64,000 nt of DNA from an uncultured Bacteroidota bacterium (GTDB lineage Bacteria > Bacteroidota > Bacteroidia > Chitinophagales > Chitinophagaceae). Each line of letters begins with the position of its first letter. Position 1 is the first letter of the stretch. Positions 11,403 through 55,582 of the stretch are shown here, in pieces. The translations under genes and the position numbers were made by a program. The DNA is taken from contig CAIVEW010000025.1 of assembly GCA_903905065.1 (NCBI GenBank), forward strand, positions 1-64,000, written 5' to 3'. The notes beneath the pieces were generated by a model. That model saw only the letters and a list, made by a program, of their open reading frames with translations, was not told where the DNA came from and did not search any database.

Positions 11403-12590
11403 ATGAACAGGTCTTTATTGAAGATCATTACTATAACAGCCGTCAGCATTATTTTGTATTCCTGTGGGGGTACAAAACAAGCTGCGCCAAACCCGGCAAA
11501 TATGCCGGTGCCGGTAAATGTGTTTGAAGCACATGCCGGAAAAGCAACCTACTTTGATAAATTCCCCGGCACGGTGACCGCACTCATGCAGGTGGACATC
11601 CATCCCGAAGTGGAAGGATATGTCACCGGCATCTTCTTCAAAGAAGGTGACCATGTAACCAAGGGGCAGAAGTTGTATTCGATTGACGACAGCAAGTACC
11701 AGGCAAGTTATAATTCGGCACAGGCAAATGTTAAGGTCGCCAATTCCAACCTTGAGCAGGCACAAAAAGACGCCGACCGTTACGTGTATCTTAACGAACA
11801 TGATGCCGTAGCAAAGCAAATACTCGACCATGCAATGACAACCTTGCAGAATGCAAAAGACCAGGTAACCGCAGCAAAACAAGACCTCACAAAAACAAAG
11901 ACCGATCTTAGCTACTCAGTGATCAGGGCGCCCTTCGATGGCACCATAGGGATATCTCAGGTGAAAGTGGGCAACACTGTAAATGTTGGCCAAACCGTGC
12001 TCAATACTATTTCTTCCGACAACCCCATGGCTGTCGACTTTGTTGTGAATGAAAAACAGATACCCAGATTCCTGGGCCTGAAACAGCACCCTCCTGCCGC
12101 ATCAGACTCTGTTTTTTCCTTGTTGCTTCCGGACAACAGCCTGTATGCAGGATCTGGCCAGATATCGTTTATCGACCGAGGCGTTAACCCGCTCACTGGA
12201 ACAATTACCGTAAGGCTTGTTTTTCAGAACGATGCATCAATACTCAGGGCAGGAATGAGCTGCACCGTGCGCGTGCGCAACGGAGACACTACCGCACAAA
12301 TGCTGGTGCCAAGCAAGGCTATTGTAGAGCAGATGGGCGAATACTTTATGTACGTAGCCAAAGATACCTTGATAGCAAGCACCGACACCGCTAAGAACAA
12401 GGACGCTCAACCACAAGGACCTTCGTTACACGCTGTGCAACGGAAGGTGACCCTTGGCCAGACTATTGCAGACAAGGTGATTGTACTGGCAGGCATAGGC
12501 GAAGGTGATAAAGTAATAATAGACGGTGTGCAGCGGCTGCGCCCGGGTGCGCCTATAATACTGGGTGGCCCCAAACCGGCCGCACATTAA
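11403..12590 (+). CDS. RND efflux periplasmic adaptor (MexA/AcrA-like lipoprotein)
   Basis: The adaptor joins the permease to the TolC-type channel. A lipobox ends at Cys21 (IILYSC). The membrane-fusion domains are in normal order: the first half of the lipoyl domain (VDIHPEVEGYVTGIFFKEGDHVTKGQKLYSID region), an alpha-hairpin at about residues 90-165, the second half of the lipoyl domain (YSVIRAPFDGTIGISQVKVGNTV), and the beta-barrel and membrane-proximal domain (LTGTITVRLVFQN, then LVPSKAIVEQMGEYFMYVA). It is the second gene of the efflux operon. A roughly 79-bp inverted repeat separates it from the permease gene. Confidence 0.94.
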   Translation: MNRSLLKIITITAVSIILYSCGGTKQAAPNPANMPVPVNVFEAHAGKATYFDKFPGTVTALMQVDIHPEVEGYVTGIFFKEGDHVTKGQKLYSIDDSKYQASYNSAQANVKVANSNLEQAQKDADRYVYLNEHDAVAKQILDHAMTTLQNAKDQVTAAKQDLTKTKTDLSYSVIRAPFDGTIGISQVKVGNTVNVGQTVLNTISSDNPMAVDFVVNEKQIPRFLGLKQHPPAASDSVFSLLLPDNSLYAGSGQISFIDRGVNPLTGTITVRLVFQNDASILRAGMSCTVRVRNGDTTAQMLVPSKAIVEQMGEYFMYVAKDTLIASTDTAKNKDAQPQGPSLHAVQRKVTLGQTIADKVIVLAGIGEGDKVIIDGVQRLRPGAPIILGGPKPAAH

Positions 12591-12669
12591 GTTAAAAGTC
12601 AAAAGTTGAAACCTAAAAGAAGTGGTATAACCTTTGACTTAAATGAATTTAAGGGTTTTGACTTTTAAC
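12591..12669. repeat. Inverted repeat in the adaptor-permease gap
   Basis: GTTAAAAGTCAAAA (12591-12604) is the exact reverse complement of TTTTGACTTTTAAC (12656-12669), with a loop of about 51 nt that contains a second partial match (CCTTTGACTTAAAT / AATTTAAGGG). It fills almost the entire gap. It could form an mRNA hairpin that tunes permease expression, or be a decayed AT-rich intergenic repeat; similar TTTTAACTTTTGA text precedes exbD1 at about 6027-6041. Confidence 0.6.
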
Positions 12670-12684
12670 CTTTAACTTAAAAAG

Positions 12685-15600
12685 ATGATCGCCGATACAT
12701 TCATAAAAAGGCCGGTAACGGCAATAGTTATCTCCCTGGTGCTGGTGCTCGTGGGTGCCATCTGCATTATGAACCTGTCAGTAGGGCAATACCCGGAGAT
12801 AACACCGCCGGTGGTTTCGGTTACCGGGCAGTTTACCGGTGCCGACGCCCTCACCGTAGAGCAAACAATGGCTACTCCGGTGGAAACACAGATCAACGGC
12901 TCGCCAGGCATGGAGTACCTGCAAAGTAACAGTACAGGTAATGGGCAGTTAACCATCAATGCGACTTTTAACATAGGTACCAATATCAACGTGGCCACAC
13001 TGGATGTGCAGAACAGGGTGAGCATTGCAACACCTCAGTTGCCGGATGTGGTGAAACGTCTGGGGCTGATAGTGAGAAAAAAGAATCCGAGCATATTGAT
13101 GCTGGTGGCGCTTTATTCTCCCAATGGCGGCCATAATGTGCAGTTCGTTGACAACTACACCAACATATTTATAAGAGATGCCTTGTTGCGTGTGGATGGT
13201 GTCGGCGATGTGTTTTCCCGAACTGATGACTTCAGTATGCGCGTATGGCTAAAACCAGACAAACTTGCGTCTTATGGCCTTACCGCTACCGATGTGAACA
13301 ATGCGATAGCCGAGCAGAATGTGCAGGTTGCTGCTGGCTCCGTTGGTGTGCCGCCACAAACAAATGTGCAGGCGTTTGAGTACAGTTTGCTGGTAAATGG
13401 CCGTTTGTTTACGACTGCCGATTTTGAAAAGATCATTGTTAAAACCATCCCATCCACCGGTGCGCTGGTGTACCTGAAAGATGTGGCCCGCCTCGAGCTG
13501 GGTAAGTTTTCTTACTCCAGCAATTCATTCGTAGATAGCAAGCGCGCATCCTATTTGCTGGTGTACCAGGCCCCCGGAAGCAATGCCCTCGCTACTGCGG
13601 AGGCTATTACGAAAAAGATGGATGAGCTGAAAAGATCTTTCCCTGCAGATATTGATTACAGCATACCCTTTGAGTCTGTTACCGTTGTGAAGGTGTCCAT
13701 GCACGAAGTGGTGATAACGTTGTTGGAAGCGCTGGGACTGGTTGCGATCGTGGTGTTTCTGTTCCTGCAAAACTGGCGTGCTACGTTGATCCCGGTGCTT
13801 GCGATTCCCGTGTCGATAATAGGTACATTCATCTTTTTCATACCCCTCGGTTTCACCATCAACACACTGACGATGTTTGGTTTTGTGCTGGCCATTGGTA
13901 TCGTTGTGGATGATGCGATCATAGTGGTGGAGGCAGTGCAGCACTATATGGATGAACAGCACATGACGGCAAAAGAAGCGGCCTTTAAAGCCATGCAGGA
14001 CATATCAGGCCCTGTAATTGCTATTGCGCTTATTCTTGCAGCGGTGTTTGTTCCCGTGGGTTTTGTTCCCGGCATCGTAGGCAGGCTCTACCAGCAGTTT
14101 GCCATTACAATAGCAATCTCGGTGATCATTTCCGCATTCGTAGCATTGTCGCTGACGCCCGCGCTGTGTACCCTGCTGCTAAAACCGAGTCATGCCAAAA
14201 AGGATGCTAAAGGCCTCAATAAGCTTTTTTACAGGTTCAACACATGGTTTGAAAAAGTGACGGCCGGCTATACCGGCTGGGTAAAACAATGTATCCGCGG
14301 ATCTAAATTTGTTGTGATTATACTGGTATGTATTTGCGTAGGCACCGTGATGTTGTTTAAAACGAAGAATACCGGATTTATCCCTACTGAAGATGATGGC
14401 CGTATATATATCACCTTCGAATTACCTGAAGCTGCGTCTACGGCGCGTGAGCTCGATGTGCTGAACCGGATAATGAAGGCGGTGGGCGAAACTCCGGGCG
14501 TAGCCCATTACGCGGCACTTGGTGGCCTTAACGTGATTACCTTCTCTTCCAAATCAAACAGTGGCACCATCTTCTGTCAGCTAAAACCCTGGGATGAACG
14601 AAGCAAACCAGAGGAACAGGTGAAAGATGGTAACGCAGGGATAATTGCTGTACTGAATAAGCGCATAGCTGCTGCCGGTGTGAAAGAGGCCAACGTAGTG
14701 GTGATACCGCCGCCCCCAATACCCGGCCTTGGACAAACCGCCGGCTTTAGTATACAGATAGAGCAGCGGCAAACGACTGACGATGTGCAGGCTTTTGAGA
14801 AAGTGGTAAAGAACTTTGTAGCGGAGGCCAATAAAAATCCGGTTATTGGCAAAGCATTCAGCTTCTATAGCGCGCACACGCCCAGCTACAGCATCACCGT
14901 TGATCGTGAAAAATGCAAGCGGCTTGGTGTTTCTATTGCTGATGCTTTTGCTACCATTCAGACGTACATGGGCAGCTTCTATGTAAATGATATAACCTTG
15001 TACAACCGTAATTTCCATGTGGTAGTGCAGGCAGATACCGCTTTCCGCACCATGATATCCGACATGGATAAATACTATGTGCGCAACCAAACAGGACAGA
15101 TGCTGCCATTGGGAACGCTCATCAGCTACAAGCCTGTAGAGACGGCCCCGCTTATTTCCCACTTCAATATCTTCCGCTCTGCCGAAATTGACGGCTCACC
15201 TAAGGAAGGCCATAGCAGTGGTGAGGCCCTCGCCGCATTGCAGCAGATAGCCGAAACTACATTGCCGCAGGGCTATGGCTACGAATTTTCCGGCCTTAGC
15301 TACGAAGAGCAGCAGGCAGGCGGTAAAACCGTTTACATATTTCTCCTGTCCATAATTTTTGTATTCCTGTTTCTCGCCGCTTTATATGAAAGCTGGGCTG
15401 TGCCGTTCTCGGTGCTTTTGGCGGTACCTATTGGGGCGTTCGGCGCCATTCTTACACTTTGGTTTAATAGTAAACTTACCAACAACGTTTATGCACAGAT
15501 AGGTCTTATTACGCTTATCGGGCTTGCTGCAAAAAACGCGATCTTGATCGTGGAGTTTGCTAAGGAGCGTGTGGACAGTGGCGAAGATATTATACAGTCA

Positions 15601-15975
15601 ACGCTTGATGCGGTAAGGCTTCGTCTTCGTCCGATCATTATGACCTCCCTGGCGTTCATACTCGGAGTTATGCCGTTGGTGCTGGCCGAGGGAGCTGGTG
15701 CTGTTGCCCGCCGCACTATAGGCTTTACGGTCCTCGGTGGCATGCTCGCAGCCACATCGCTGGCTATCTTCATCGTTCCTGTGCTTTTTGTGCTTATTTC
15801 AAAGGTCGCCTACAGCAAAAAGCAACTCGCCTTCCTCAAAGCCCACCATGATGAGCTGGAGCAGAAACGCGAATTAGAAAACGGCGGGAGCGATCCCACC
15901 AGGGAGCTGGATATGAAGCTGAAAAAAGAAGAAGAGGACCGGGAAAAGGGCAAAGAGCCGGATGGTGTCTCGTAA
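12685..15975 (+). CDS. RND multidrug efflux permease (HAE1/AcrB family)
   Basis: This 1,096-residue inner-membrane proton antiporter has the AcrB architecture: helix 1 at the N-terminus (IADTFIKRPVTAIVISLVLVL), the porter domain beginning with QYPEITPPVVSVTGQFTGA, helices 2-6 from about 340 with the proton-relay motif GFVLAIGIVVDDAIIVVEA (two adjacent Asp in helix 4), a second porter/docking half, and helices 8-12 with GLAAKNAILIVEFAKE. The adjacent Asp pair (VVDDA) and the GYGYEFSGLSYEEQ segment are typical of HAE1, not of metal (HME) pumps. A charged C-terminal tail of about 45 residues (EEEDREKGKEPD) exceeds the usual end. It is the last gene of the operon. Confidence 0.96.
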   Translation: MIADTFIKRPVTAIVISLVLVLVGAICIMNLSVGQYPEITPPVVSVTGQFTGADALTVEQTMATPVETQINGSPGMEYLQSNSTGNGQLTINATFNIGTNINVATLDVQNRVSIATPQLPDVVKRLGLIVRKKNPSILMLVALYSPNGGHNVQFVDNYTNIFIRDALLRVDGVGDVFSRTDDFSMRVWLKPDKLASYGLTATDVNNAIAEQNVQVAAGSVGVPPQTNVQAFEYSLLVNGRLFTTADFEKIIVKTIPSTGALVYLKDVARLELGKFSYSSNSFVDSKRASYLLVYQAPGSNALATAEAITKKMDELKRSFPADIDYSIPFESVTVVKVSMHEVVITLLEALGLVAIVVFLFLQNWRATLIPVLAIPVSIIGTFIFFIPLGFTINTLTMFGFVLAIGIVVDDAIIVVEAVQHYMDEQHMTAKEAAFKAMQDISGPVIAIALILAAVFVPVGFVPGIVGRLYQQFAITIAISVIISAFVALSLTPALCTLLLKPSHAKKDAKGLNKLFYRFNTWFEKVTAGYTGWVKQCIRGSKFVVIILVCICVGTVMLFKTKNTGFIPTEDDGRIYITFELPEAASTARELDVLNRIMKAVGETPGVAHYAALGGLNVITFSSKSNSGTIFCQLKPWDERSKPEEQVKDGNAGIIAVLNKRIAAAGVKEANVVVIPPPPIPGLGQTAGFSIQIEQRQTTDDVQAFEKVVKNFVAEANKNPVIGKAFSFYSAHTPSYSITVDREKCKRLGVSIADAFATIQTYMGSFYVNDITLYNRNFHVVVQADTAFRTMISDMDKYYVRNQTGQMLPLGTLISYKPVETAPLISHFNIFRSAEIDGSPKEGHSSGEALAALQQIAETTLPQGYGYEFSGLSYEEQQAGGKTVYIFLLSIIFVFLFLAALYESWAVPFSVLLAVPIGAFGAILTLWFNSKLTNNVYAQIGLITLIGLAAKNAILIVEFAKERVDSGEDIIQSTLDAVRLRLRPIIMTSLAFILGVMPLVLAEGAGAVARRTIGFTVLGGMLAATSLAIFIVPVLFVLISKVAYSKKQLAFLKAHHDELEQKRELENGGSDPTRELDMKLKKEEEDREKGKEPDGVS

Positions 15976-42675: not shown

Positions 42676-43986
42676 ATGCTTGACCTTAAGCTTGCCAAAA
42701 ATATATGCACGCTTTGTTGCATCTGTTTTTTGCAATCCAACATAATATTTGCTCAGGAACATCAACCGCTGCCACCCACAGATACACTACGTGTGGACCT
42801 GAGGCAGACCGAAAAAATGTTCCTGGAAAACAACCTGCAACTGCTGGCTCAGAAATACAGCATTGATAGTGCCCGCGCAACGATAATTACAGCAAAACTG
42901 TTTGATAATCCTCAATTTGGGGTGAGTAGCGGCCTGTATAATCCAACTACCAGCAAGTTCTTTGATTACAGCAACGGAAATGGGGAAGTTGCGATGCAGT
43001 TAAGCCAGTTAATAAAAACTGCCGGCAAGCGGAATAAAAATATTCAGTTGGCCAAAACCGGTGTCGCGTTAACGGAATACCAGTTCGCCGATCTCTTGCG
43101 AACATTGGAATATACCCTGCGCAATGATTTCTTCAACATTTATTATTTAAGGGAGACACAAAAAGTGTATGACGTTGAGATCGGTTCTTTACAGACTACA
43201 AACAGAGCCTATGCGGAACAATTGCAGAAGGGGAATGTGTCTGAATTGGACCTGATACGGATACAGTCGCAGCAATATACATTGCAGGCGGAACTAGCTA
43301 CGCTGCAAAATAACATAGACGATGTAGAGAGCGAATTAAAACTGCTGCTTCGGGCGAAGGCAACCATTTATATAGTGCCTCAATACGAGGGTGCCGGCGA
43401 TAACCAACAAGTGTTAACAGAAGTACCTCTTCAATCTTTGGTGGATAGCGCTTATCAAAACAGGGCGGACCTGAAAATGGCAAAAACGGCGGTTACTTTC
43501 AATCAGCAAAACCTGGCTTTGCAGAAGGCATTGGCGGTACCGGACATAAACATAGACCTGGGTTATGACCGCCTGGGTAGCTATGTAAATAACTACAACA
43601 GCATAGGCATTGATTTCCCCCTGCCTTTTTTCAACCGTAACCAGGGTAATATCAAACAGGCAAAAATAGGTGTTCAATCTAGCCAGGTGCAATTGGAGAG
43701 TACCCAGGATGCAGTGGAAAGCCAGATCGCCAACTCTTACCTGGGAGCGGTGCGCGCAGAGCGGTTACTTAACTCATTTGACCCTAGGTTTGCTGGGAAT
43801 ATCAGTCACCTGATAGGTGAAGTGACGAAAAACTTCCAGTCGCATAATATTAGCCTGCTGGAATTCACGGATTTTTACGACACATACAAGCAAAATGTTG
43901 TTCAGCTTAATAACCTTCGTTATAACCGGGTGAGCCAGCTCGAGCAACTCAATTTCACCACCGGAACAAGAATATTCAACAAATAA
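42676..43986 (+). CDS. czcC: Outer-membrane channel of a metal RND pump (CzcC-like, TolC family)
   Basis: A signal peptide (CTLCCICFLQSNIIFAQ) leads a 410-residue OEP-type barrel/coil protein. Motifs such as LRQTEKMFLENNLQLLAQKYSID (first repeat start), SELDLIRIQSQQYTLQAEL and IDFPLPFFNRNQGNIKQAKI match the CzcC/CusC branch of the TolC family. It precedes czcB by 10 bp and czcA1 by about 1.1 kb. Confidence 0.9.
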   Translation: MLDLKLAKNICTLCCICFLQSNIIFAQEHQPLPPTDTLRVDLRQTEKMFLENNLQLLAQKYSIDSARATIITAKLFDNPQFGVSSGLYNPTTSKFFDYSNGNGEVAMQLSQLIKTAGKRNKNIQLAKTGVALTEYQFADLLRTLEYTLRNDFFNIYYLRETQKVYDVEIGSLQTTNRAYAEQLQKGNVSELDLIRIQSQQYTLQAELATLQNNIDDVESELKLLLRAKATIYIVPQYEGAGDNQQVLTEVPLQSLVDSAYQNRADLKMAKTAVTFNQQNLALQKALAVPDINIDLGYDRLGSYVNNYNSIGIDFPLPFFNRNQGNIKQAKIGVQSSQVQLESTQDAVESQIANSYLGAVRAERLLNSFDPRFAGNISHLIGEVTKNFQSHNISLLEFTDFYDTYKQNVVQLNNLRYNRVSQLEQLNFTTGTRIFNK

Positions 43987-43996
43987 ATCATTAGAC

Positions 43997-45103
43997 ATGT
44001 TTTCTCGTTTTATCAAGTTAAGTGTTTGCAGCCTACTATTCACAGGGGGGCTTGTTTACCTGTCGGCGTGCAAGTCAAAGGAAGCAGGAACAGAAGATAC
44101 CCGCACGGCTTATACCATACCTGACTCACTGTTAAGGACATTGACCATTGATACAGTGAAAATGTCTAAGATCACTAACTCCATTAAGTTCAATGGTGTT
44201 GTTGATTTCAACCCGGATAAGGTGGCGAACATATTTCCATTGATCAGCGGAAATGTGCAAGGGATAAAGGCGCAGCTTGGGGATTACGTGACCGCAGGAG
44301 AAGTACTGGGAACCATTAAAAGTTCGGAGATAGCCAATTACAATGCTGCGCTAACCAATGCGGAGAGCAATGTAAAGCTCACGGCGGCACTGCTTGCAAA
44401 GAGTGAAGAGATGGCAAAAAGCGGCCTCGCCTCGCAGGTGGATGTAACTACCGCCAAAGTAAATTACGACCAGGCGGTTGCATCCAAGTTAGCCGCTGAA
44501 AAGATTCTCAGCATCAACGGAAATAACCCGCATGGCGAATACCTGATAAAATCGCCGATCAATGGGTTTATAGTGCAGAAGAATGTGAACAATGGCATGG
44601 CTATTCGTGCTGATAATGGAGGTAGTCTTTTTACCATTTCCGACCTTAAGGAAGTTTGGGTACAGGCAAATGTATATGAAGCGAGCATAAACAATGTACA
44701 TGAAGGCGACGAAGTAGATGTTGCCACCATTACCTATCCTGATAAGGTCTTCAAAGGGAAAATAGATAAGCTGATGAATGTGCTGGACCCTACCAACAAA
44801 GTAATGAAAATGCGCGTCGAGCTGCCTAATCCGGGTTACCTGCTTAAACCACAGATGTTTGCTACGGTAACAGTGAACAACGATCTTCCTGAAGAAGCGA
44901 TATCCGTTCCGAACAACGCGCTCATATTCGACCACAGCCAGTATTTCGTGATCGTTTATAAAGGCAATAAGAATGCTGAGATAAGGTCAGTTGACATTAT
45001 CAGTTCCAATGGTAAAACAACCTACATAAAAAATGGTGTGAAGCCCGGCGAAATGGTAGTTGGGTCGCAGGCCATTCTTATTTACGGCGCACTAAATAGC
45101 TAG
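43997..45103 (+). CDS. czcB: Metal RND pump periplasmic adaptor (CzcB-like lipoprotein)
   Basis: The lipobox ends at Cys25 (VYLSAC). The adaptor then shows the lipoyl halves (VANIFPLISGNVQGIKAQLGD and LIKSPINGFIVQKNVNNGMAI), an alpha-hairpin near residues 105-160 (AALTNAESNVKLTAALLAKSEE), and the barrel and membrane-proximal domains (WVQANVYEASINNVHEGDEV and YLLKPQMFATV). It is the middle gene of the tripartite pump. The N-terminal domains do not show an obvious His-rich metal-binding extension. Confidence 0.92.
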   Translation: MFSRFIKLSVCSLLFTGGLVYLSACKSKEAGTEDTRTAYTIPDSLLRTLTIDTVKMSKITNSIKFNGVVDFNPDKVANIFPLISGNVQGIKAQLGDYVTAGEVLGTIKSSEIANYNAALTNAESNVKLTAALLAKSEEMAKSGLASQVDVTTAKVNYDQAVASKLAAEKILSINGNNPHGEYLIKSPINGFIVQKNVNNGMAIRADNGGSLFTISDLKEVWVQANVYEASINNVHEGDEVDVATITYPDKVFKGKIDKLMNVLDPTNKVMKMRVELPNPGYLLKPQMFATVTVNNDLPEEAISVPNNALIFDHSQYFVIVYKGNKNAEIRSVDIISSNGKTTYIKNGVKPGEMVVGSQAILIYGALNS

Positions 45104-45130: not shown

Positions 45131-48100
45131 ATGAATAAGGTTATTAAAGGAATTATTGCGTTTTCGCTTAAAAACAGGTATTTCATTTTATTTTGTGCAC
45201 TGATATTGGTAGTGGCCGGTATCATCACGTATAAAAGTATGCCTATCGAGGCTTTTCCTGACGTGACAAATACGGAGATCAGCATTATTACCCAATGGCC
45301 GGGCCGGAGCGCTGAAGAGGTAGAAAAATTCATTACGATACCAGTAGAAATAGCCATGAACCCGGTGCAGCGAAAAGTAAGCCTGCGCAGCACGAGCATC
45401 TTTGGCCTTTCATACGTGAAGCTGATATTTGATGATGACGTAAAAGACCCCGAGGCAAGGCAGCAGGTAATGAACCTCCTTCAAAATGCCACGTTGCCGC
45501 CAAATGTGTTGCCTTCGGTGCAGCCGCCTACCGGCCCTACCGGCGAGATTTTCAGGTACACTCTGGAAAGCGATGTGCGCGATGTGCGTGAACTGAAAAC
45601 CATACAGGACTGGGTTGTGGACCGGCAACTACGCTCTGTGCCGGGAGTGGGGGACGTTACGGCATTCGGCGGCAAAACCAAAACCTATGAAATACAGGTA
45701 GATCCGGGGAAACTGACATCTTTGAACATTACACCGCTGGATGTTTTTACTGCTGTTCAGAAGACCAATATCAACATTGGTGGCGACATCATTGTGCAGA
45801 ACAACCAGGCGTTCGTTGTGCGCGGTATCGGGCTACTGAATGACATCAATGAAATAGCGAATATCGTTATCAATAACACCAATGGCGTTCCTGTCCTGGT
45901 GAAGGATGTGGCGCAAGTGAAGATATCCAATGTGCCGAGGCTGGGGTGGGTTGCCCGTTCAAATGATTTGCCAGACTCTACCGGTAAACGGAAAATTACA
46001 GACGTTAAAGATGTTGTTGAGGCGATAGTCGTTATGCGCAAGGGCGGTAATCCCACTGAAGTAGTCGATGCCGTGAAAGCAAAAGTAGATAAACTGAACA
46101 ATGGCATACTACCGCGTGATGTGCATATCGTTCCGTATTATGACCGCTCTGACCTGACCGAATACGCAACCCATACGGTTACGCACAATCTTGCGGAGGG
46201 CATCATTCTTATTACGCTGCTGGTATCGCTGTTCATGTTCAACTGGCGCACCACTCTTATTGTTTCTCTCATTATCCCCATGTCGTTGCTGTTTGCCTTT
46301 ATATGCCTGCATATGATGGGTATGTCTGCCAATTTGCTGTCACTTGGTGCGGTGGATTTCGGTATCATCATCGATGGCGCGGTGGTTATGGTAGAAGGTT
46401 TGTTTGTGGTACTCGATCATAGAGGGCATGAACTTGGTATGGAGCGGTTTAACAAAATAGCGAAGTATGGGTTGATAAAAACCAATGGTGCACAGCTAGG
46501 CAAGGCGATCTTCTTTGCGAAGCTGATCATTATCACTGGGTTGCTTCCCATATTTGCGTTTCAGAAAGTGGAGGGAAAAATGTTCTCACCGCTTGCCTTT
46601 ACGCTAGGTTTTGCACTGCTTGGTGCACTCATTACTACGCTTACCCTTGTGCCTGTGCTAATCAGCATTCTGCTGAAAAAGAATGTGCGTGAGCGCGATA
46701 ATCCCGTTGTGCATTATCTGACTGCATTTATGCTGGGAGGGTTTAAGAAGGCATACAAGCAAAAGAAGATCGTTATCCCTCTCTCGATACTCATTATGGC
46801 TATTGGCTTGTTCTCCTTCAAATTTTTAGGTTCTGAGTTTTTACCTGAATTAAATGAAGGTTCCATCTGGCTGAGGGTGCAGATGCCTTACAGTATCTCG
46901 TTAGAAAAGTCTGTTGAGGTCTCTACAACAGTCCGCCAAAAGCTGATGACCTTTCCGCAGGTAAAGTATGCGGTATCGCAGACGGGGCGCCCAGATGATG
47001 GTACTGATGTTGCGGGTTTTTACAACAATGAATTTTCGGTAATGCTTTACCCGGAAGATGATTGGAACCCTAAAATGAGTAAGGATGAGCTGATCGCGAA
47101 AATGAATGAAAAGCTTTCGGTTATACCCGGAGCAGAACTTAACTTTTCGCAGCCCATTATGGACAATGTGGAGGAGGCTGTGTCTGGTGTAAAAGGATCT
47201 ATCTGTGTAAAAGTGTATGGGGACTCACTGGGGTATATGGAAGATAAGGTGACCGAAGTATGTAATATACTCAGGGGTGTAAAGGGTATTACTGACCTTG
47301 GCGTGATCCATAACATAGGCCAGCCGGAACTGGATGTGAACCTGGACCAGCAAAAAATGGCGATTTATGGCGTAGCTACGGCAGACGCCAACGCAGTGGT
47401 AGCGATGGCTATTGGTGGGCTCGCCGCTTCCACGCTTTATGAGGGGGCGCGAACATTTGACATCCGTATACGCCTGCCGGAAGAGTTCAGAAAGACGCCT
47501 GAAGATATCGGCAACCTTCTTGTTCCTACACAGAGCGGATCGAAGGTGCCGATCAAGGAACTGGCAACTATCTCCGAAAAAACGGGGCCTTGCCTTATTT
47601 TCAGAGACGATAATGAGCGCTATTCTGCGCTTAAGTTTTCTGTGAGAGACAGGGACATGGGCAGCGCGATTGCTGAAGCGCAAGCGAAAGTGAAAAGTAA
47701 GGTGCAGTTGAAGCGTGGCTACCGGATGGCCTGGCAGGGAGACTTTGAAAACCAGCAACGTGCCACGAAGCGTCTGGCCCAGGTGGTACCTATCAGCCTG
47801 CTGCTGATACTTCTGTTGCTCGTTACCATGTTTGGCAATTTTAAAGATGCCCTTCTGGTTTTCTTAAATGTTCCGTTTGCCATAGTGGGCGGTATTGCCA
47901 CACTGCTTATGACCGGCACTAACTTTAATATTTCTGCCGGCATTGGTTTTATTGCGTTGTTTGGTATCTGTATACAAAACGGGGTCTTGCTCATCATTGT
48001 GTTTAAACAGAACCTTGAAAAGATTAAAGGTGGCCAGGGATCACTATACTCCTCAATAAAGCAGGGAGTCAATGCCAAGATACGGCCGGTGGTAATGACT

Positions 48101-48319
48101 GCGATGATGGCAGCAATAGGTCTTTTACCTGCGGCCATATCCCATGGCATAGGCTCGGAGAGCAGCAGGCCACTGGCCCGCGTGGTTATCGGTGGAATAC
48201 TTTGCGCCATGATCTTTAGCCTTTGGGTGTTCCCGTTGATCTATGCATGGGCATACCGCAAAATAGAGCTGAAACACGAAGACCACATTCCGAACCAGGA
48301 CGTAGCCCAGGATTCGTAG
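45131..48319 (+). CDS. czcA: Heavy-metal RND permease CzcA/CusA-like (copy 1)
   Basis: A 1,062-residue HME-type RND proton antiporter. Signs of the metal branch are the helix-4 motif LGAVDFGIIIDGAVVMVEG (about residues 400-418), the N-terminal PDVTNTEISIITQWPGRSAEEVE, and SQTGRPDDGTDVAGFYNNEF in the porter domain. Twelve helices are expected. The metal (Co/Zn/Cd, Cu/Ag or Ni) cannot be read from the sequence. It is followed by an OmpR regulator and a sensor kinase, and then a near-copy of itself. Its last 171 bp are almost identical to those of the second copy while neighbouring sequence is much more divergent. Confidence 0.95.
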   Translation: MNKVIKGIIAFSLKNRYFILFCALILVVAGIITYKSMPIEAFPDVTNTEISIITQWPGRSAEEVEKFITIPVEIAMNPVQRKVSLRSTSIFGLSYVKLIFDDDVKDPEARQQVMNLLQNATLPPNVLPSVQPPTGPTGEIFRYTLESDVRDVRELKTIQDWVVDRQLRSVPGVGDVTAFGGKTKTYEIQVDPGKLTSLNITPLDVFTAVQKTNINIGGDIIVQNNQAFVVRGIGLLNDINEIANIVINNTNGVPVLVKDVAQVKISNVPRLGWVARSNDLPDSTGKRKITDVKDVVEAIVVMRKGGNPTEVVDAVKAKVDKLNNGILPRDVHIVPYYDRSDLTEYATHTVTHNLAEGIILITLLVSLFMFNWRTTLIVSLIIPMSLLFAFICLHMMGMSANLLSLGAVDFGIIIDGAVVMVEGLFVVLDHRGHELGMERFNKIAKYGLIKTNGAQLGKAIFFAKLIIITGLLPIFAFQKVEGKMFSPLAFTLGFALLGALITTLTLVPVLISILLKKNVRERDNPVVHYLTAFMLGGFKKAYKQKKIVIPLSILIMAIGLFSFKFLGSEFLPELNEGSIWLRVQMPYSISLEKSVEVSTTVRQKLMTFPQVKYAVSQTGRPDDGTDVAGFYNNEFSVMLYPEDDWNPKMSKDELIAKMNEKLSVIPGAELNFSQPIMDNVEEAVSGVKGSICVKVYGDSLGYMEDKVTEVCNILRGVKGITDLGVIHNIGQPELDVNLDQQKMAIYGVATADANAVVAMAIGGLAASTLYEGARTFDIRIRLPEEFRKTPEDIGNLLVPTQSGSKVPIKELATISEKTGPCLIFRDDNERYSALKFSVRDRDMGSAIAEAQAKVKSKVQLKRGYRMAWQGDFENQQRATKRLAQVVPISLLLILLLLVTMFGNFKDALLVFLNVPFAIVGGIATLLMTGTNFNISAGIGFIALFGICIQNGVLLIIVFKQNLEKIKGGQGSLYSSIKQGVNAKIRPVVMTAMMAAIGLLPAAISHGIGSESSRPLARVVIGGILCAMIFSLWVFPLIYAWAYRKIELKHEDHIPNQDVAQDS

Positions 48320-48351
48320 AACATTTTGAAGTTTTTATTGCCCGGATAGAT

Positions 48352-49029
48352 ATGCAATTGCTGCTGATAGAAGATGAGCCGAAAATAGCCGCATTTATTC
48401 AAAAAGGATTAAATGAAAACGGGTACGGCCTGACGATTGCTTACGATGGCAAACTGGGACTGAAAATGGCGTTGCAGGGAGAATATGACCTGATCATCCT
48501 GGATATCATGCTGCCGGCACTAAGCGGTTTGGATATTTGCAAACAAGTACGACTTGGTGGTATAAACACGCCGGTATTAATGCTTACAGCCTTAGGTACA
48601 CTTGATGACAAGGTTCACGGATTGAGGCAGGGCGCCGACGATTACCTGGTAAAGCCATTTCATTTTAAGGAACTCGTTGCCAGAATAGAAGCGCTTACTC
48701 GCCGCAGCCACCAACAGCTTATTTCCAACAGTACGCTACAGGTTGCAGACCTGGTGCTGGACCGCAATAGAAAATTTGCACAGCGGGATGGTAAAGAGAT
48801 CGTATTGACGGCAAGGGAATATGCTTTGCTTGAACTCTTCATGAAGAACACGAACCGTTTGCTTTCCCGCAGTGATATTGCGGAACAGGTGTGGGGCTAT
48901 GAGTTTGATGCCGGCAGCAATGTGATAGACGTTTACATAAATTATCTGAGGAATAAAATTGAAAAAGGGTTTTCTTCCAAGTTGATCCATACGATGGTTG
49001 GAATGGGTTACATAATGAGAGAGCCATAG
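48352..49029 (+). CDS. OmpR/PhoB-type response regulator
   Basis: The 225-residue protein has a receiver domain (LLLIEDEPKIAAFI, then YDLIILDIMLPALSG with the phospho-accepting Asp at about residue 51, and LVKPFHFKELVARI with the conserved Lys) and a winged-helix DNA-binding domain (LTAREYALLELFMKN and VWGYEFDAGSNVIDVYINYLRNKI). The ATG at 48352 is chosen; the frame extends upstream to 48223 inside czcA1. It is the regulator for the metal efflux locus by position, like CzcR/CusR. Confidence 0.95.
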   Translation: MQLLLIEDEPKIAAFIQKGLNENGYGLTIAYDGKLGLKMALQGEYDLIILDIMLPALSGLDICKQVRLGGINTPVLMLTALGTLDDKVHGLRQGADDYLVKPFHFKELVARIEALTRRSHQQLISNSTLQVADLVLDRNRKFAQRDGKEIVLTAREYALLELFMKNTNRLLSRSDIAEQVWGYEFDAGSNVIDVYINYLRNKIEKGFSSKLIHTMVGMGYIMREP

Positions 49030-49031
49030 TC

Positions 49032-50393
49032 ATGCAGATAAGGAATAAATTGTCGCTGTATTTTACGATCACCAGTTCCTTGCTAATGCTGGTGATCATG
49101 GTATTTATTTACTTGCTCTTTTCCAATCTCACAAGAAATAATTTTTATCGCTCATTGCATGAGAGAACCATCGTGGCAGCTCAGCTTTATCTCGAGGCCG
49201 ATGAAATATCTGCATCGTCTTTGCAAAAGATAAAAGAAAAGTTTGTTGTCACGCTGCCACAGGAAATAATAAGGGTATACGACAGCACTGACCAGCAATC
49301 TTTCGCCCGTGATAAGGAAGGTAACTGGGGTAAAAATATTATTGACCAGGTGAGACAAAAAAAATACATGACCTACCGGGAAAATGACCGGCAAGTTGTT
49401 GGTATTTACTATGAAGACAACCAGGGGAATTTTGTGATCCTGGCATCGGCGGTGGATGTTGAAGGTCAAAAACAGAGGAAGAACCTCCTGGAGATAATGG
49501 CTGCATTGTTCGGGATACAGATATTAATACAGTTTGCCGCTGGTCGGTGGTTTGCGCAAAGGGCACTGCTGCCTGTGCAATTGGTAAATGCACAGGTGCA
49601 AAAAATATCCGCTACAGACTTGCATTTGCGGGTTGATACCAATAATGAAAAAGACGAGTTGGGCCTCCTCGCAGCTAATTTTAACAACCTTCTGGATCGA
49701 CTTGAGAAATCGTTTGACCTTCAGAAAATGTTTGTCGCAAATGCTTCCCATGAATTAAAGACGCCGGTGACTAACATGATCGGTGAGATTGAGGTCGCTG
49801 TCAGTTTGGATCGCACAGAAGCGGAATACAAACAAACCCTGCAATCTGTACTAGCAGAAGCGGAACGGTTGCATAGTATAATCAGGAATTTTCTTATGCT
49901 GACAAGCGCCGAAAATAATATTGCCATGCAGGCAATGGAACCTGTGAGGTTTGATGAATTGTTGTGGGAAGTAAGAGAAAATTTTAGCAGGCAGCAGGGC
50001 GCTATTATTGATGTACGACTGGATGAATTGCCGGACGACGAAGGGCGTTTGTATGTTAAAACGAACAAGACACTCCTTATTCATGTTATCGGCAACATTA
50101 TTCAAAATGCGATCAAGTTTTCGACCGGTCAGCCTGTAATTTGCAGCCTGCACTTTACCGAAGATTCCATTTCTATCCGGGTTTCGGATAAGGGAGTTGG
50201 TATAGATGCGGCCAGCCTGCAAAATATTTTCGAACCCTTTTTCCGGAGTGTGGACACCGACCAATTCGAAGGGCATGGTATAGGGCTGTATATTGCTAAA
50301 AAAATAATCGAGCTTTTGGGCGGAGATATTACTGTACGATCCAGCCCTGGCGCCGGCAGTATTTTTAACATAGCATTCTACCAAACCGCCTGA
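49032..50393 (+). CDS. Sensor histidine kinase (CzcS/CusS-like)
   Basis: The 453-residue kinase has a first helix at residues 9-30, a periplasmic sensor domain of about 115 residues, a second helix (about 155-172) and a HAMP region. The HisKA box is NASHELKTPVTNMIGEIEV, and the ATPase motifs NIIQNAIKF (N box), DKGVGID (G1) and GHGIGLYIAKKI (G2) are complete. It starts 2 bp after the response regulator stop. The pair probably senses periplasmic metal and controls both czc clusters. Confidence 0.95.
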   Translation: MQIRNKLSLYFTITSSLLMLVIMVFIYLLFSNLTRNNFYRSLHERTIVAAQLYLEADEISASSLQKIKEKFVVTLPQEIIRVYDSTDQQSFARDKEGNWGKNIIDQVRQKKYMTYRENDRQVVGIYYEDNQGNFVILASAVDVEGQKQRKNLLEIMAALFGIQILIQFAAGRWFAQRALLPVQLVNAQVQKISATDLHLRVDTNNEKDELGLLAANFNNLLDRLEKSFDLQKMFVANASHELKTPVTNMIGEIEVAVSLDRTEAEYKQTLQSVLAEAERLHSIIRNFLMLTSAENNIAMQAMEPVRFDELLWEVRENFSRQQGAIIDVRLDELPDDEGRLYVKTNKTLLIHVIGNIIQNAIKFSTGQPVICSLHFTEDSISIRVSDKGVGIDAASLQNIFEPFFRSVDTDQFEGHGIGLYIAKKIIELLGGDITVRSSPGAGSIFNIAFYQTA

Positions 50394-50495
50394 TTCTAAT
50401 CTCATTTTAATGCCGTTCTAATCGCGTTCAAATACGCCAGGCATTTCTTTGCGCCTATCATTTTACAAGCCTGATAAGCGCTAAAGAAATCAGCA

Positions 50496-53400
50496 ATGAA
50501 TAAACTGCTCAAAAAAGTTATAGGGTTCTCGCTAAAGAACCGGAATTTTATTTTACTCTGTTCCCTGATACTTGTAGTAGCAGGCATCCTTACCTACAAA
50601 AGCATGCCGATTGAGGCGTTCCCGGATGTGACGAATACGGAGATAAGCATCATCACACAGTGGCCGGGCCGCAGTGCCGAAGAAGTGGAAAAGTTTATCA
50701 CCATACCTGTCGAAATTGCCATGAACCCGGTGCAACGTAAAGTAAGCCTGCGGAGCACAAGTATCTTCGGACTGTCTTATGTTAAGTTGATCTTTGACGA
50801 TGATGTGAAAGACCCGGAAGCGCGGCAGCAAGTCATGAACCTGCTTCAAAATGCGGCACTTCCACCCAACGTTCAGCCAGCTGTTCAGCCGCCTACCGGG
50901 CCCACCGGCGAGATATTCCGGTATACGCTGGAAAGCAATGTAAGAGATGTACGGGAGCTAAAGACGATCCAGGATTGGGTGGCGGACCGCCAGCTGCGGT
51001 CGGTGCCGGGTGTTGGTGATGTAACTGCGTTTGGTGGTAAGACAAAGATCTACGAAATACAGGTGGATCCCGGTAAGCTGACGTCGCTCAATATTACTCC
51101 GCTTGATGTATTTACTGCGGTTCAAAAGACGAACATTAATATCGGTGGTGACATCATTGTAAAGAATGACCAGGCATTTGTGGTGCGTGGTATCGGGCTG
51201 CTGAACGACGTGAATGAAATAGCCAACATCGTTATAAATAACACCAATGGTGTACCGGTATTGGTAAAGGATGTGGCGGAAGTAAAAATATCAAATGTAC
51301 CGCGGCTGGGATGGGTGGCCCGCGCTAATGGGCTGACCGACTCATCAGGCAAACGGACTATTACCGACCAGCCAGATGTGGTGGAGGCTATTGTAGTAAT
51401 GCGCAAAGGCGCCAACCCAAGCGAGGTGGTGGCCGCCATTAAGGAGAAGGTAAAAAAACTGAACAATAGTATCCTTCCGGGAGATACGCACATAGTGCCT
51501 TACTACGACCGGTCGGACCTTATTGAATATGCTACGCATACGGTTACGCATAATCTGCTGGAGGGAATAATACTTGTAACCCTGCTTGTCTCCCTGTTTA
51601 TGTTCAACTGGCGTACGACTCTTATCGTATCTATCATCATACCCCTGGCGCTGCTATTTGCTTTTATTTGCCTGCACCTGATGGGGATGTCGGCAAACCT
51701 GCTGTCGCTGGGAGCGGTAGATTTCGGTATCATCATAGATGGTGCTGTAGTAATGGTGGAAGGAATGTTTGTGATACTAGACCACAAGGCCAACGAAGTA
51801 GGCATGTCGCGTTTCAATAAACTGGCCAAGTATGGATTGATAAAGAAGAACGGCGCTCAGCTGGGCAAGGCTATATTTTTTGCGAAGCTCATTATCATTA
51901 CCGGCCTGCTGCCCATTTTTGCATTCGAGAAAGTGGAAGGTAAAATGTTTTCACCCCTGGCGTTTACCCTTGGTTTTGCATTGCTTGGGGCGCTGATCAC
52001 TACGCTTACTTTGGTACCGGTGCTTATCAGCATACTGCTAAAAAAGAATGTACACGAGCGCCACAATCCCTTTGTTCATCATCTTACCGGATTTATGCTC
52101 GGTGGTTTTACCAAGACATATCGAAATAAGAGAATTGTTGTGCCTGTGGCTTTGGTTGTTATGGCGATAGGTTTGTTCTCTTTTAAATTCTTAGGGTCGG
52201 AGTTTTTACCCGAACTGAATGAAGGGTCGATATGGCTGAGGGTGCAGACGCCTTACAGCATTTCGCTGGAAAAATCTGTGGAAGTGTCTACTCAAGTAAG
52301 AAAAATACTGATGGAATTTCCGCAAGTGAAATATGCGGTATCACAAACCGGTCGCCCCGACGATGGCACCGATGTTGCGGGATTTTACAATAATGAGTTT
52401 TCCGTGATGCTCTATCCCGAAAGTGACTGGAAACCGAGAATGAGCAAGGATGAGCTGATAGACCAGATGAGTAAGCGCCTTTCTGTGATTCCAGGTGCAG
52501 ACCTGAACTTTTCGCAGCCCATCATGGACAATGTGGAGGAAGCGGTCTCCGGCGTAAAAGGATCGATCTGCGTGAAGGTGTACGGCGACTCCCTGAAGTA
52601 TATGGAGGACAGGGTAAACGATGTGTATAATATACTTAGGAATGTAAATGGTGTATCAGATCTCGGTGTAATTCATAATATCGGCCAGCCCGAACTGGAT
52701 GTGAACCTGGACCAGCAAAAAATGGCTCTCTATGGCGTGGCTACGGCAGATGCCAATGCAGTGGTAGCGATGGCGATAGGTGGGCAGGCGGCATCGACTC
52801 TCTATGAGGGAGCCAGGACTTTCGATATCCGGATACGGCTGCCGGAGGAATTCAGAAAGACGCCGGATGACATAGGTAATCTTCTGGTGCCTACGCAAAG
52901 CGGTTCAAAAGTGCCGATAAAAGAGCTGGCAACCATCACCCAGAAGACAGGGCCTTGCCTTATATTCAGGGATGACAATGAGAGATATGCCGCGCTTAAA
53001 TTCTCAGTAAGGGATAGAGATATGGGCAGTACAATCGCCGAAGCTCAGAAAAAAGTGAACGAGAAAGTGAAGTTGAAAAGAGGTTATTCCATGGCCTGGC
53101 AGGGAGACTTTGAGAATCAGCAACGGGCTACTAAGCGACTGGCACAAGTGGTGCCCATAAGCTTGCTGCTTATCTTTTTATTGCTATTCACTATGTTTGG
53201 GAACTTCAAAGATGCGTTACTCGTCTTCCTCAACGTTCCCTTTGCTATTGTTGGTGGCATCATCGCTCTTCTGCTAACGGGTACCAACTTCAGTATCTCC
53301 GCAGGAATTGGTTTTATTGCACTGTTTGGTATTTGCATACAGGACGGTGTGCTACTGATCACGGTATTTAAACAGAATCTCGAAAATATAAAAGGAGGAC

Positions 53401-53684
53401 AAAGCTCGTTATACGCCTCTATAAAACTAGGTGTTAACTCCAGGATAAGACCAGTAATGATGACGGCTATGATGGCAGCCATTGGGTTATTGCCGGCGGC
53501 TGTATCTCATGGTATAGGCTCGGAGAGCAGCAGGCCACTGGCCCGAGTGGTTATCGGGGGAATACTTTGCGCCATGATCTTTAGCCTTTGGGTGTTCCCG
53601 TTGATCTATGCATGGGCCTACCGTAAAATAGAGCTGAAACACGAAGACCACATTCCGAACCCGGATGTAGCACAGGAGTCATAG
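50496..53684 (+). CDS. czcA: Heavy-metal RND permease CzcA/CusA-like (copy 2, tandem paralogue)
   Basis: A second 1,062-residue HME-type RND permease with the same length and nearly the same protein sequence as copy 1 (for example LGAVDFGIIIDGAVVMVEG). Most codons differ at silent positions, so the duplication is not recent, except for the last 171 bp. It lies 102 bp after the kinase gene and has no czcC/czcB of its own, so it probably shares those proteins with copy 1. Differences include FVILDHKANEVGMSRF versus FVVLDHRGHELGMERF. Confidence 0.95.
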   Translation: MNKLLKKVIGFSLKNRNFILLCSLILVVAGILTYKSMPIEAFPDVTNTEISIITQWPGRSAEEVEKFITIPVEIAMNPVQRKVSLRSTSIFGLSYVKLIFDDDVKDPEARQQVMNLLQNAALPPNVQPAVQPPTGPTGEIFRYTLESNVRDVRELKTIQDWVADRQLRSVPGVGDVTAFGGKTKIYEIQVDPGKLTSLNITPLDVFTAVQKTNINIGGDIIVKNDQAFVVRGIGLLNDVNEIANIVINNTNGVPVLVKDVAEVKISNVPRLGWVARANGLTDSSGKRTITDQPDVVEAIVVMRKGANPSEVVAAIKEKVKKLNNSILPGDTHIVPYYDRSDLIEYATHTVTHNLLEGIILVTLLVSLFMFNWRTTLIVSIIIPLALLFAFICLHLMGMSANLLSLGAVDFGIIIDGAVVMVEGMFVILDHKANEVGMSRFNKLAKYGLIKKNGAQLGKAIFFAKLIIITGLLPIFAFEKVEGKMFSPLAFTLGFALLGALITTLTLVPVLISILLKKNVHERHNPFVHHLTGFMLGGFTKTYRNKRIVVPVALVVMAIGLFSFKFLGSEFLPELNEGSIWLRVQTPYSISLEKSVEVSTQVRKILMEFPQVKYAVSQTGRPDDGTDVAGFYNNEFSVMLYPESDWKPRMSKDELIDQMSKRLSVIPGADLNFSQPIMDNVEEAVSGVKGSICVKVYGDSLKYMEDRVNDVYNILRNVNGVSDLGVIHNIGQPELDVNLDQQKMALYGVATADANAVVAMAIGGQAASTLYEGARTFDIRIRLPEEFRKTPDDIGNLLVPTQSGSKVPIKELATITQKTGPCLIFRDDNERYAALKFSVRDRDMGSTIAEAQKKVNEKVKLKRGYSMAWQGDFENQQRATKRLAQVVPISLLLIFLLLFTMFGNFKDALLVFLNVPFAIVGGIIALLLTGTNFSISAGIGFIALFGICIQDGVLLITVFKQNLENIKGGQSSLYASIKLGVNSRIRPVMMTAMMAAIGLLPAAVSHGIGSESSRPLARVVIGGILCAMIFSLWVFPLIYAWAYRKIELKHEDHIPNPDVAQES

Positions 53685-53777: not shown

Positions 53778-54584
53778 GTGAAAAATAAATTTATTCTTCT
53801 CTTATTGGGGTGTATCATCGCCTGCTCTCCTGCCTTTGCGCAGCTCAGGGCCGATGACGAGGCTGGTGTGCATAAGCAGCCCAAGACCGAGGAAGACGAG
53901 GAAGCACCATTCAGGTATAACGGCCATGACTACAGCCTTGGGTTTGCGCTAGGCTCTACCAAGATGTACGCAAACCTCCCGTACTCAAATCCGCAACCTG
54001 CTTACATCGGTTATTTGGAAAAGAACCTGATGCCGTTTCTGAGTATCGGGTTACAGGTAACTGTAGGCGACCTCTCCAGCAGGTGGCCAAGGAATCACTT
54101 GTTCAGCTTTAACCATTTTACGTCTTTAGACGAACACTTGAATGTGTCCATCGGAAGTCTATTTTATATTTTCGACAGGAACTATAATGACAATTTATTA
54201 AAGCGCATTATTGGAGGGGTTTACGGGGGCATAGGCATTGGTGTGATCAATAACGATATTAAACGGATAGCTAATGTTGATTGGTATCAGTTATCTACCA
54301 TGACTCCCTTAACGGATAACCCTACCATCGAAAAGAACACGGCCGCCTTATATTTCCCATTCAATGCGGGATATAACTACAGGGTGCGACAGTTTCTTTT
54401 CTTTCATAACGGGTTTGTTTTTAACGGCAATATCCAACTAAATGACTGCCAGTCGGACTATATAGATGGTTATAGCCCTCCTTTTGCAGGGCATAAGCAT
54501 ACCGGCGTGTACTCGATCATGTCGATCGGGGCGAAATTTTATATCACCCGCAAGGAGCCTGATAATCTTTTCTTCGACCAATAA
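53778..54584 (+). CDS. Putative outer-membrane beta-barrel protein
   Basis: The start is a GTG (53778), giving KNKFILLLLGCIIACSPAFAQ, a good signal peptide. A short acidic linker (KTEEDEEAPF) precedes about 215 residues in alternating polar/hydrophobic strands with many aromatic residues (YSLGFALGSTKMYANLPY, YNYRVRQFLFFHNGF, VYSIMSIGAKFYITR). The last strand-like segment is typical of small outer-membrane barrels. No named family is recognised. It follows czcA2 by 93 bp but has its own promoter, so it need not belong to the metal operon. Confidence 0.7.
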   Translation: MKNKFILLLLGCIIACSPAFAQLRADDEAGVHKQPKTEEDEEAPFRYNGHDYSLGFALGSTKMYANLPYSNPQPAYIGYLEKNLMPFLSIGLQVTVGDLSSRWPRNHLFSFNHFTSLDEHLNVSIGSLFYIFDRNYNDNLLKRIIGGVYGGIGIGVINNDIKRIANVDWYQLSTMTPLTDNPTIEKNTAALYFPFNAGYNYRVRQFLFFHNGFVFNGNIQLNDCQSDYIDGYSPPFAGHKHTGVYSIMSIGAKFYITRKEPDNLFFDQ

Positions 54585-54667: not shown

Positions 54668-55582
54668 ATGCAAATTCTGGATGGAGTATTAGTATCTGGC
54701 CACATCAAGGAGCAGATAAAACAGGACGTAACCGATTTCCAGGCGGCGGGTGGAAAAAAGCCACACCTTGCAGCCATTTTGGTGGGTAACAACCCTGCAA
54801 GCGAAGCCTATGTGGGCTCCAAAGTGAAGCACTGTGATGAACTAGGTTTTGATTCGACACTCCTACGGTTTGAAAAAGATATTTCCGAGGCATTTCTTAT
54901 CGGCGAAGTAGAGCGACTAAATAGTGACGACAGTATAGATGGTATACTGGTACAATTGCCTTTGCCAGACCACATTTCGGGAGATGCTGTGATCAATGCG
55001 ATCAGTCCTGCAAAGGATGTGGATGGTTTTCATCCCATATCGTTGGGCAAGATGCTGCTGGGCCAGCCAACCTTTCTTCCCGCTACGCCATACGGTATCA
55101 TGCTGATGCTGGAATACTATAAGATAGATACCAGCGGCATGCATTGCGTGATCATTGGCAGAAGCAACATCGTGGGTACGCCGATGACCATTTTGATGAG
55201 TCGTGCTTCTAACCCGGGCAATGCCACTGTGACCATGTGTCATTCGAAGACAAAGAACCTCAAAGAGATCACAAAGACCGCAGATATGATCATTGCCGCC
55301 ATCGGCAGGCCAAAATATGTGACAGCTGATATGGTAAAACCTGGCGCAATAATTATTGACGTAGGTATTAACCGGGTAGACGACCAGACAAAGAAAAGCG
55401 GCTCGAGGTTGGTGGGTGATGTGGATTTCGATAACGTAGCGCCTTTATGCAGTTACATTACCCCAGTGCCCAAAGGCGTGGGGCTGATGACGATATGCGG
55501 GCTGATGAAGAATACGCTGCAGGCAGCAAAGAGAAGCCCCTCCCCGGCCGTCTCCGAAGGAGAGGGAGGTGTCACGAAATAG
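54668..55582 (+). CDS. folD: Methylenetetrahydrofolate dehydrogenase/cyclohydrolase (FolD)
   Basis: The bifunctional enzyme interconverts methylene- and formyl-tetrahydrofolate. The N-terminal domain shows HLAAILVGNNPASEAYVGSK (with the Lys of the active site) and DGILVQLPLPDHI; the NADP-binding part shows VIIGRSNIVGTPMTILM. The C-terminal motif reads PVPKGVGLMTICGL where PVPGGVGPMT is usual. The last residues (SPSPAVSEGEGGVTK) are encoded by a palindromic repeat and are probably extra. It is followed by queE and uppP. The mRNA is likely leaderless. Confidence 0.95.
   Translation: MQILDGVLVSGHIKEQIKQDVTDFQAAGGKKPHLAAILVGNNPASEAYVGSKVKHCDELGFDSTLLRFEKDISEAFLIGEVERLNSDDSIDGILVQLPLPDHISGDAVINAISPAKDVDGFHPISLGKMLLGQPTFLPATPYGIMLMLEYYKIDTSGMHCVIIGRSNIVGTPMTILMSRASNPGNATVTMCHSKTKNLKEITKTADMIIAAIGRPKYVTADMVKPGAIIIDVGINRVDDQTKKSGSRLVGDVDFDNVAPLCSYITPVPKGVGLMTICGLMKNTLQAAKRSPSPAVSEGEGGVTK
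55536..55572. repeat. CCCCTCCCC...GGAGAGGGAGG repeat forming the folD 3' end
   Basis: CCCCTCCCCGGCCGTCTCC and GGAGAGGGAGG form an imperfect hairpin related to the CCCTCTCCC repeat at 8411-8443. It is translated as the last part of folD. Confidence 0.55.

Follow-up and report, generated by a model that had tools for sequence, protein, structure and literature searches.

Two duplicated genes can be almost identical over their last 150 nucleotides (nt) or so and differ like ordinary paralogues over the thousand codons before them. What keeps the ends alike? The question is raised by a 64,000-nt stretch of DNA from an uncultured Bacteroidota bacterium of the Chitinophagaceae (contig CAIVEW010000025.1, positions 1 to 64,000; hereafter the window), which holds two heavy-metal RND permease genes, czcA1 (copy A) and czcA2 (copy B), on either side of the genes of a two-component regulator. 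Within genomes, the tails of the two copies evolve in concert, while the preceding ∼1000 codons follow separate orthologous lines. Comparison of the sequences points to recurrent short-patch intragenomic gene conversion between the czcA1 and czcA2 tails as the probable cause, to which we assign a probability of about 0.88. The features at the centre of the question are as follows.

45131..48319, + strand: czcA1 (copy A), heavy-metal RND permease of 1062 amino acids (aa); TIGR00914 at 892.8 bits (cut-off 701.45)
48149..48296, + strand: homogenised 3′ patch of czcA1, 144/148 identical to 53514–53661; silent-site scan
48352..49029, + strand: response regulator (RR) of the OmpR type; PF00072 and PF00486, matched on a longer form of the open reading frame (ORF)
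49032..50393, + strand: sensor histidine kinase (HK); HAMP, HisKA and HATPase_c
50496..53684, + strand: czcA2 (copy B), heavy-metal RND permease of 1062 aa; TIGR00914 at 905.7 bits (cut-off 701.45)
53514..53661, + strand: homogenised 3′ patch of czcA2; pairwise alignment with czcA1 and silent-site scan

A step in silent divergence

An earlier inspection of the letters alone (the sequence-only reading) described two 1,062-codon permeases flanking an RR/HK pair, with nine gap-free differences in the last 171 bp at an offset of 5365. Both ORFs do encode 1062 aa, with the RR and HK genes between them, and our recount of the gap-free alignment agrees on the offset and the nine differences. Because five of these nine crowd into the final 23 nt, the tight patch is 48149–48296, with 4 differences in 148 nt. 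The same reading had claimed a sharp step in silent divergence, which is borne out by counts and by permutation. Silent differences between czcA1 and czcA2 affect 4 of 46 scorable codons in codons 1007–1055 vs 495 of 853 in codons 1–1006, and the former stretch contains no amino-acid difference. A maximal-segment scan of silent codons places the best segment at 48149–48295, with the 5′ edge of the patch at 48148/48149; no permutation among 5000 reached it at mismatch penalties of 2, 3 or 4, and three did at penalty 1. Exact runs of 59, 37 and 32 nt lie in the tail, and the longest outside it is 35 nt (47327–47361). A search for another equally long high-identity tract in the two genes, which the sequence-only reading had set as a check, showed that none exists. 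Likewise, a search of the genome for further copies of the tail tract returned none beyond czcA1 and czcA2.

Two histories in one gene

Relatives were sought among 35 genomes of the same genus, 15 of which match czcA1 at E ≤ 1e-60. Six genomes carry two full or near-full czcA copies: the window genome, G001, G004, G005, G026 and G022. The first four of these are the closest, and all near relatives compared are draft genomes.

The two parts of the gene give opposite trees. The tree of codons 1–995 unites the czcA1 genes of the four closest genomes in a clade and the czcA2 genes of those genomes in another (both with support of 100). In the tree of codons 1007–1055, the two copies are instead sisters within the window genome (94), G005 (98) and G001 (77). 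Orthology is rejected for the tail (approximately unbiased test, p 5e-48), and within-genome pairing is rejected for the rest (p 8e-80).

Quartet sites, given as concerted:orthologous:cross, tell the same two histories. Over the last 171 nt, the six pairs of the four closest genomes give 6:1:0, 13:0:1, 28:0:0, 7:1:0, 18:0:1 and 24:0:1. Among 41 sliding windows along the gene, the last alone is lopsided toward concerted sites (66 concerted vs 4 orthologous); concerted sites equal or exceed orthologous ones in three others, which start at nt 151 (23/21), nt 601 (28/24) and nt 2926 (36/34), and of which the one from nt 2926 overlaps the tail. Amino-acid quartets are 6:391:1 in codons 1–1006 and 18:0:0 in codons 1007–1062, and the variable C-terminal residues are common to both copies of a genome, not to orthologues. 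Moreover, segment scans find the tail as the best segment in 3 of 6 within-genome comparisons and in none of the 30 cross comparisons, which set copy A against copy B from a different genome; among 30 orthologue comparisons it is the best segment in one (copy B of the window genome against that of G004, w_B-G004_B, where 467/500 permutations reach it).

Is the tail constrained rather than copied?

The 3′ end might hold an element constrained at silent sites, such as an RNA structure, a regulatory site or a codon preference, that keeps the copies alike without recombination. The protein tail is conserved, as the absence of amino-acid differences between the copies in codons 1007–1055 attests, and this much suits such constraint. 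However, codons 33–120, with equally few amino-acid changes, show ordinary silent divergence. The sequence-only reading had also proposed checking for silent conservation of the 3′ end in relatives, and the tail is not conserved there: across the 12 A–A and B–B comparisons of the four closest genomes, silent differences number 239/519 in codons 1007–1055 and 5482/11036 in the rest, so that orthologous tails differ silently as much as the remainder of the gene. Constraint fails because the silent sites of the tail vary from species to species; nor does a fixed constraint yield opposite trees, or variable C-terminal residues that are alike within genomes and not among orthologues. We regard it as highly improbable.

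In another reading, both tails must be bound by a trans-acting factor or a small RNA peculiar to each genome and co-evolve with it, identity being selected and not copied; this would give likeness within genomes and divergence between them. However, the patch spans ∼150 nt including ordinary silent sites, which is longer than most binding sites, and it has two copies only in the genome. An inverted repeat (hairpin or palindrome) of at least 10 nt was sought in 48050–48420 and not found. Selection of this kind is, in our judgement, very unlikely.

A separate observation concerns the opposite end of czcA1. At the 5′ end of the gene (45131–45260 in the window), the best silently conserved segment falls within codons 2–42 in five of the six czcA1 orthologue comparisons among the four closest genomes. 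It stands out only between the window genome and G004, where 2/500 permutations reach it; in the others 84 to 360 of 500 do.

Spread and edges of homogenisation

The degree of homogenisation varies: the window genome and G005 show it strongly, G001 moderately and G004 weakly, whereas it does not reach significance in G026 and is lacking in G022. One-sided Fisher values for tail vs rest are 9.5e-12 (window), 4.4e-11 (G005), 8.6e-4 (G001), 0.027 (G004), 0.22 (G026) and 0.93 (G022); codons are not independent, and these values rank the genomes rather than prove the effect. The longest exact run in the tail measures 59 nt in the window genome, 62 in G005 and 54 in G001, and elsewhere in the genes at most 35, 26 and 29 nt, respectively. 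The 5′ edge of the patch lies at codon 1007 in the window and at codons 999–1000 in G005, and the longest identical run in G001 covers codons 1040–1057.

The sequence-only reading had suggested a recent gene conversion or unequal recombination. Conversion is supported, though not as a single event, since the tail is concerted in several lineages and the edges differ. Unequal recombination, as a distinct alternative, finds no support: no hybrid or extra copy turned up in the six same-genus genomes with two copies. Most simply, the tails would have been homogenised before or close to the time when the four closest genomes split, then again in the lineages of the window genome and G005 and probably also in that of G001.

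Several points weigh against recurrent conversion of the tails. G004 is only weakly homogenised, with 16/44 tail silent differences, and the tail tree does not make its two copies sisters. In G026 the copies are also adjacent, and the effect is not significant (19/41 tail silent differences). G005 may be a mixture of strains or contain an assembly error, given that its contigs are interrupted in the tract and that the two readings of its czcA2 tail differ at four sites. Finally, the donor-to-recipient step, the direction it takes and the cause of its restriction to the tail are inferred.

The G005 contigs bring assembly into question more generally. Two of them, C646 and C377 (loci L040 and L041), end or start within the homogenised tail, so repeats of this kind break assemblies at this locus. 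One could thus imagine that short-read assembly or binning copied one tail onto the other, the more so as the near relatives are all drafts. Against this, the window tract holds nine differences, with a longest exact run of 59 nt and both copies on one contig, and separate assemblies whose tail sequences differ show the pattern too. The chance of such an artefact appears very small.

Segment scans were extended to other czcA pairs, giving 20 comparisons after three same-contig repeats and four pairs under 70% identical were dropped. The tail holds the best segment in five: the window, G005, G001, L076 and L085 copies 1–2. Four of these are reached by at most 16 of 1000 permutations, the exception being L076 (102). 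We rejected the idea that tail likeness is the rule in tandem czcA pairs, since 12 of the 14 comparisons in other loci, without RR/HK between the copies, show no such effect. The other two have fewer tail silent differences at uncorrected p < 0.05 (L076, 0.0078; L108, 0.013), a weak hint of tail likeness in other tandem pairs. In L085, copies 1–2 are in tandem with no RR/HK between them, and 13/1000 permutations reach their best segment.

The copies share another short identical run at codons 866–878 (47726–47764 in the window), which measures 23 nt in the window, 38 nt in G026 and 35 nt in G022. The best segment in G022, codons 843–875 (17/1000 permutations), lies around it. This run may reflect protein conservation or an older conversion.

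Why the tail?

We propose that czcA1 and czcA2 were duplicated before the compared genomes separated and that, lying 5.4 kb apart as direct repeats around the regulator genes, they would undergo short-patch non-reciprocal homologous recombination that repeatedly copies the last ∼50–60 codons of one copy onto the other. Our preferred reason for its confinement, itself a proposal, is that the patch sustains itself: the homogenised tail alone would keep exact matches long enough to start recombination, and the tail would be re-converted while the rest of the gene drifted out of reach. The physical nearness of the copies probably helps. We favour a self-sustaining patch helped by nearness because exact runs stay long in the tail, although G004 does not fit this pattern, its longest runs (32 nt) lying elsewhere; a hotspot set by a particular sequence is a possible alternative. 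The role of nearness is judged from one separated pair, that of G022: there an unrelated ORF follows czcA1, and czcA2, on a separate contig, is directly preceded by an RR gene, without an intervening HK gene. These copies, with different neighbours, are not homogenised (24/38 tail silent differences vs 444/845 in the rest).

Alternatively, conversion may act along the whole gene, with events that erase copy-specific residues removed by selection and events in the tail surviving. Tail codons 989–1062 do lack fixed copy-specific residues, and 45 such residues are spread across codons 23–988. However, codons 33–278 form a run of 246 codons in which no residue tells the copies apart across the four closest genomes, and the silent differences retained there within genomes range from 101/225 to 138/229; their quartets (89:143:92) do not raise the concerted class above the cross (chance) class. 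Avoiding harm to specialised residues therefore falls short as the sole explanation, because codons 33–278 are not homogenised; selection on residues that this test cannot see, through folding or expression, remains compatible with the data. We consider selective filtering unlikely as the explanation.

Partial cDNAs would also give a 3′-end bias, and a reverse transcriptase could in that way mediate conversion from 3′-truncated cDNA. However, the three genomes in which homogenisation is clearest (the window genome, G001 and G005) give no RVT_1 match, two of them being drafts of 70–96% completeness; matches occur in G004 and G026 only. This route strikes us as extremely improbable. A diversity-generating retroelement was rejected as well: the four patch differences are silent and of mixed types, and the search of the window genome gave no reverse transcriptase.

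Returning to a self-sustaining patch of conversion, at the protein level both pumps would retain the last transmembrane helix and the cytoplasmic tail in common and specialise in their other domains. A bolder conjecture, which we hold doubtful though conceivable, is that the czcA1-RR-HK-czcA2 direct-repeat geometry is a positional hotspot fixed in the genus, which would drive tail-confined conversion over inter-species time without immune selection or residue protection as its cause. If true, this would tie two pumps that are specialising to a single, common membrane-tail module.

The surrounding locus

Upstream and downstream of the genes above lie the following.

42676..43986, + strand: outer-membrane efflux protein oep (CzcC-like); Pfam OEP PF02321, E 1.4e-40
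43997..45103, + strand: periplasmic adaptor (CzcB-like); TIGR01730 RND_mfp, over cut-off
53778..54584, + strand: 268-aa protein of no assigned family, conserved downstream neighbour of czcA2
54668–55582: folD-like gene, downstream of the 268-aa protein gene

czcA1 and czcA2 alone in the whole genome pass the TIGR00914 cut-off, and their proteins are 88.6% identical. Among solved structures, that of the zinc pump ZneA is closest in sequence, a likeness that does not fix the substrate. The adaptor passes the general RND model TIGR01730 and scores 145.9 bits against the CzcB/NccB model TIGR00999, below its cut-off of 319.3. Similarly, the RR (252.5 against the heavy-metal response regulator model TIGR01387, cut-off 279.2) and the HK (189.8 against the heavy-metal sensor kinase model TIGR01386, cut-off 292.55) fall below cut-offs of models that are still their best NCBIfam matches. 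The RR start is placed at ATG 48352, from which relatives align; the ORF list has a longer TTG form from 48223. The 268-aa protein is without a Pfam or NCBIfam match; its gene adjoins copy B in L033 and L035 and is also found on L041.

That czcA2 lacks an adaptor of its own, as had been noted from the sequence, is true at the locus, and the genome has no second close adaptor: an own-genome search with the adaptor gave one full match and seven others at 23–31% identity. Both pumps would probably use a single CzcCB-like pair, and competition of the two permeases for one CzcCB, also put forward in the sequence-only reading, is plausible. Elsewhere, the window has another RND pair at 11535–15867, made up of an adaptor (26% identical) and a permease (about 23% identical) and below the CusA/CzcA cut-off.

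The order oep-adaptor-czcA1-RR-HK-czcA2 stands on a single contig in G004 and G026 and is pieced together over contigs in G001 and G005; L124 has one czcA copy. The order RR-HK-oep-adaptor-czcA is found in L044 3–6748 (G033, same genus) and in the wider relatives L054 and L056. This order elsewhere suggests a five-gene unit, duplicated in tandem, as the origin of czcA1-RR-HK-czcA2, with one RR-HK and one oep-adaptor lost afterwards.

Comparison with known systems

In gene arrangement, the locus resembles MdtABC, two RND permeases with one adaptor (PMC7015380); both have two homologous permease genes and one adaptor gene. It differs in that the czcA pair is of the CusA/CzcA family, 88.6% identical and with RR/HK between.

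Whole-gene, long-lasting concerted evolution in prokaryotes has been reported for 26 genes (Wang and Chen 2018, PMC6053082). Recurrent conversion is there, as here, inferred from paralogues closer to each other than to orthologues across species. In czcA, however, concerted evolution is limited to the last ∼5% of the gene, vs whole genes in the survey, in whose main text the words efflux and transporter do not occur. Our searches of a library of openly licensed literature turned up no report of czcA tail conversion.

The closer parallel in pattern is with babA/babB and homA/homB of Helicobacter pylori. Passages in PMC2795765 and PMC3960876, citing Pride and Blaser 2002, describe a 5′ part that follows orthology between strains and a 3′ segment that clusters within strains, explained by intragenomic gene conversion. 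The czcA genes likewise combine an orthologous 5′ part with a within-genome 3′ segment. As those passages give it, the H. pylori segment is about 1 kb long, in outer-membrane adhesin genes and among strains of one species; the czcA segment is ∼150–190 nt long, in a cytoplasmic-membrane metal pump and among separate species of one genus of environmental bacteria. This is a metal-resistance locus, with no antigenic selection. Trees or amplicons from the czcA 3′ end would mis-assign the two copies. The czcA tails are a new, well-resolved case, in a metal-efflux locus, of the known phenomenon of partial 3′-terminal concerted evolution, and they offer a natural case for how duplicates escape conversion, in which about 1000 codons escaped and the last ∼55 did not, in several species.

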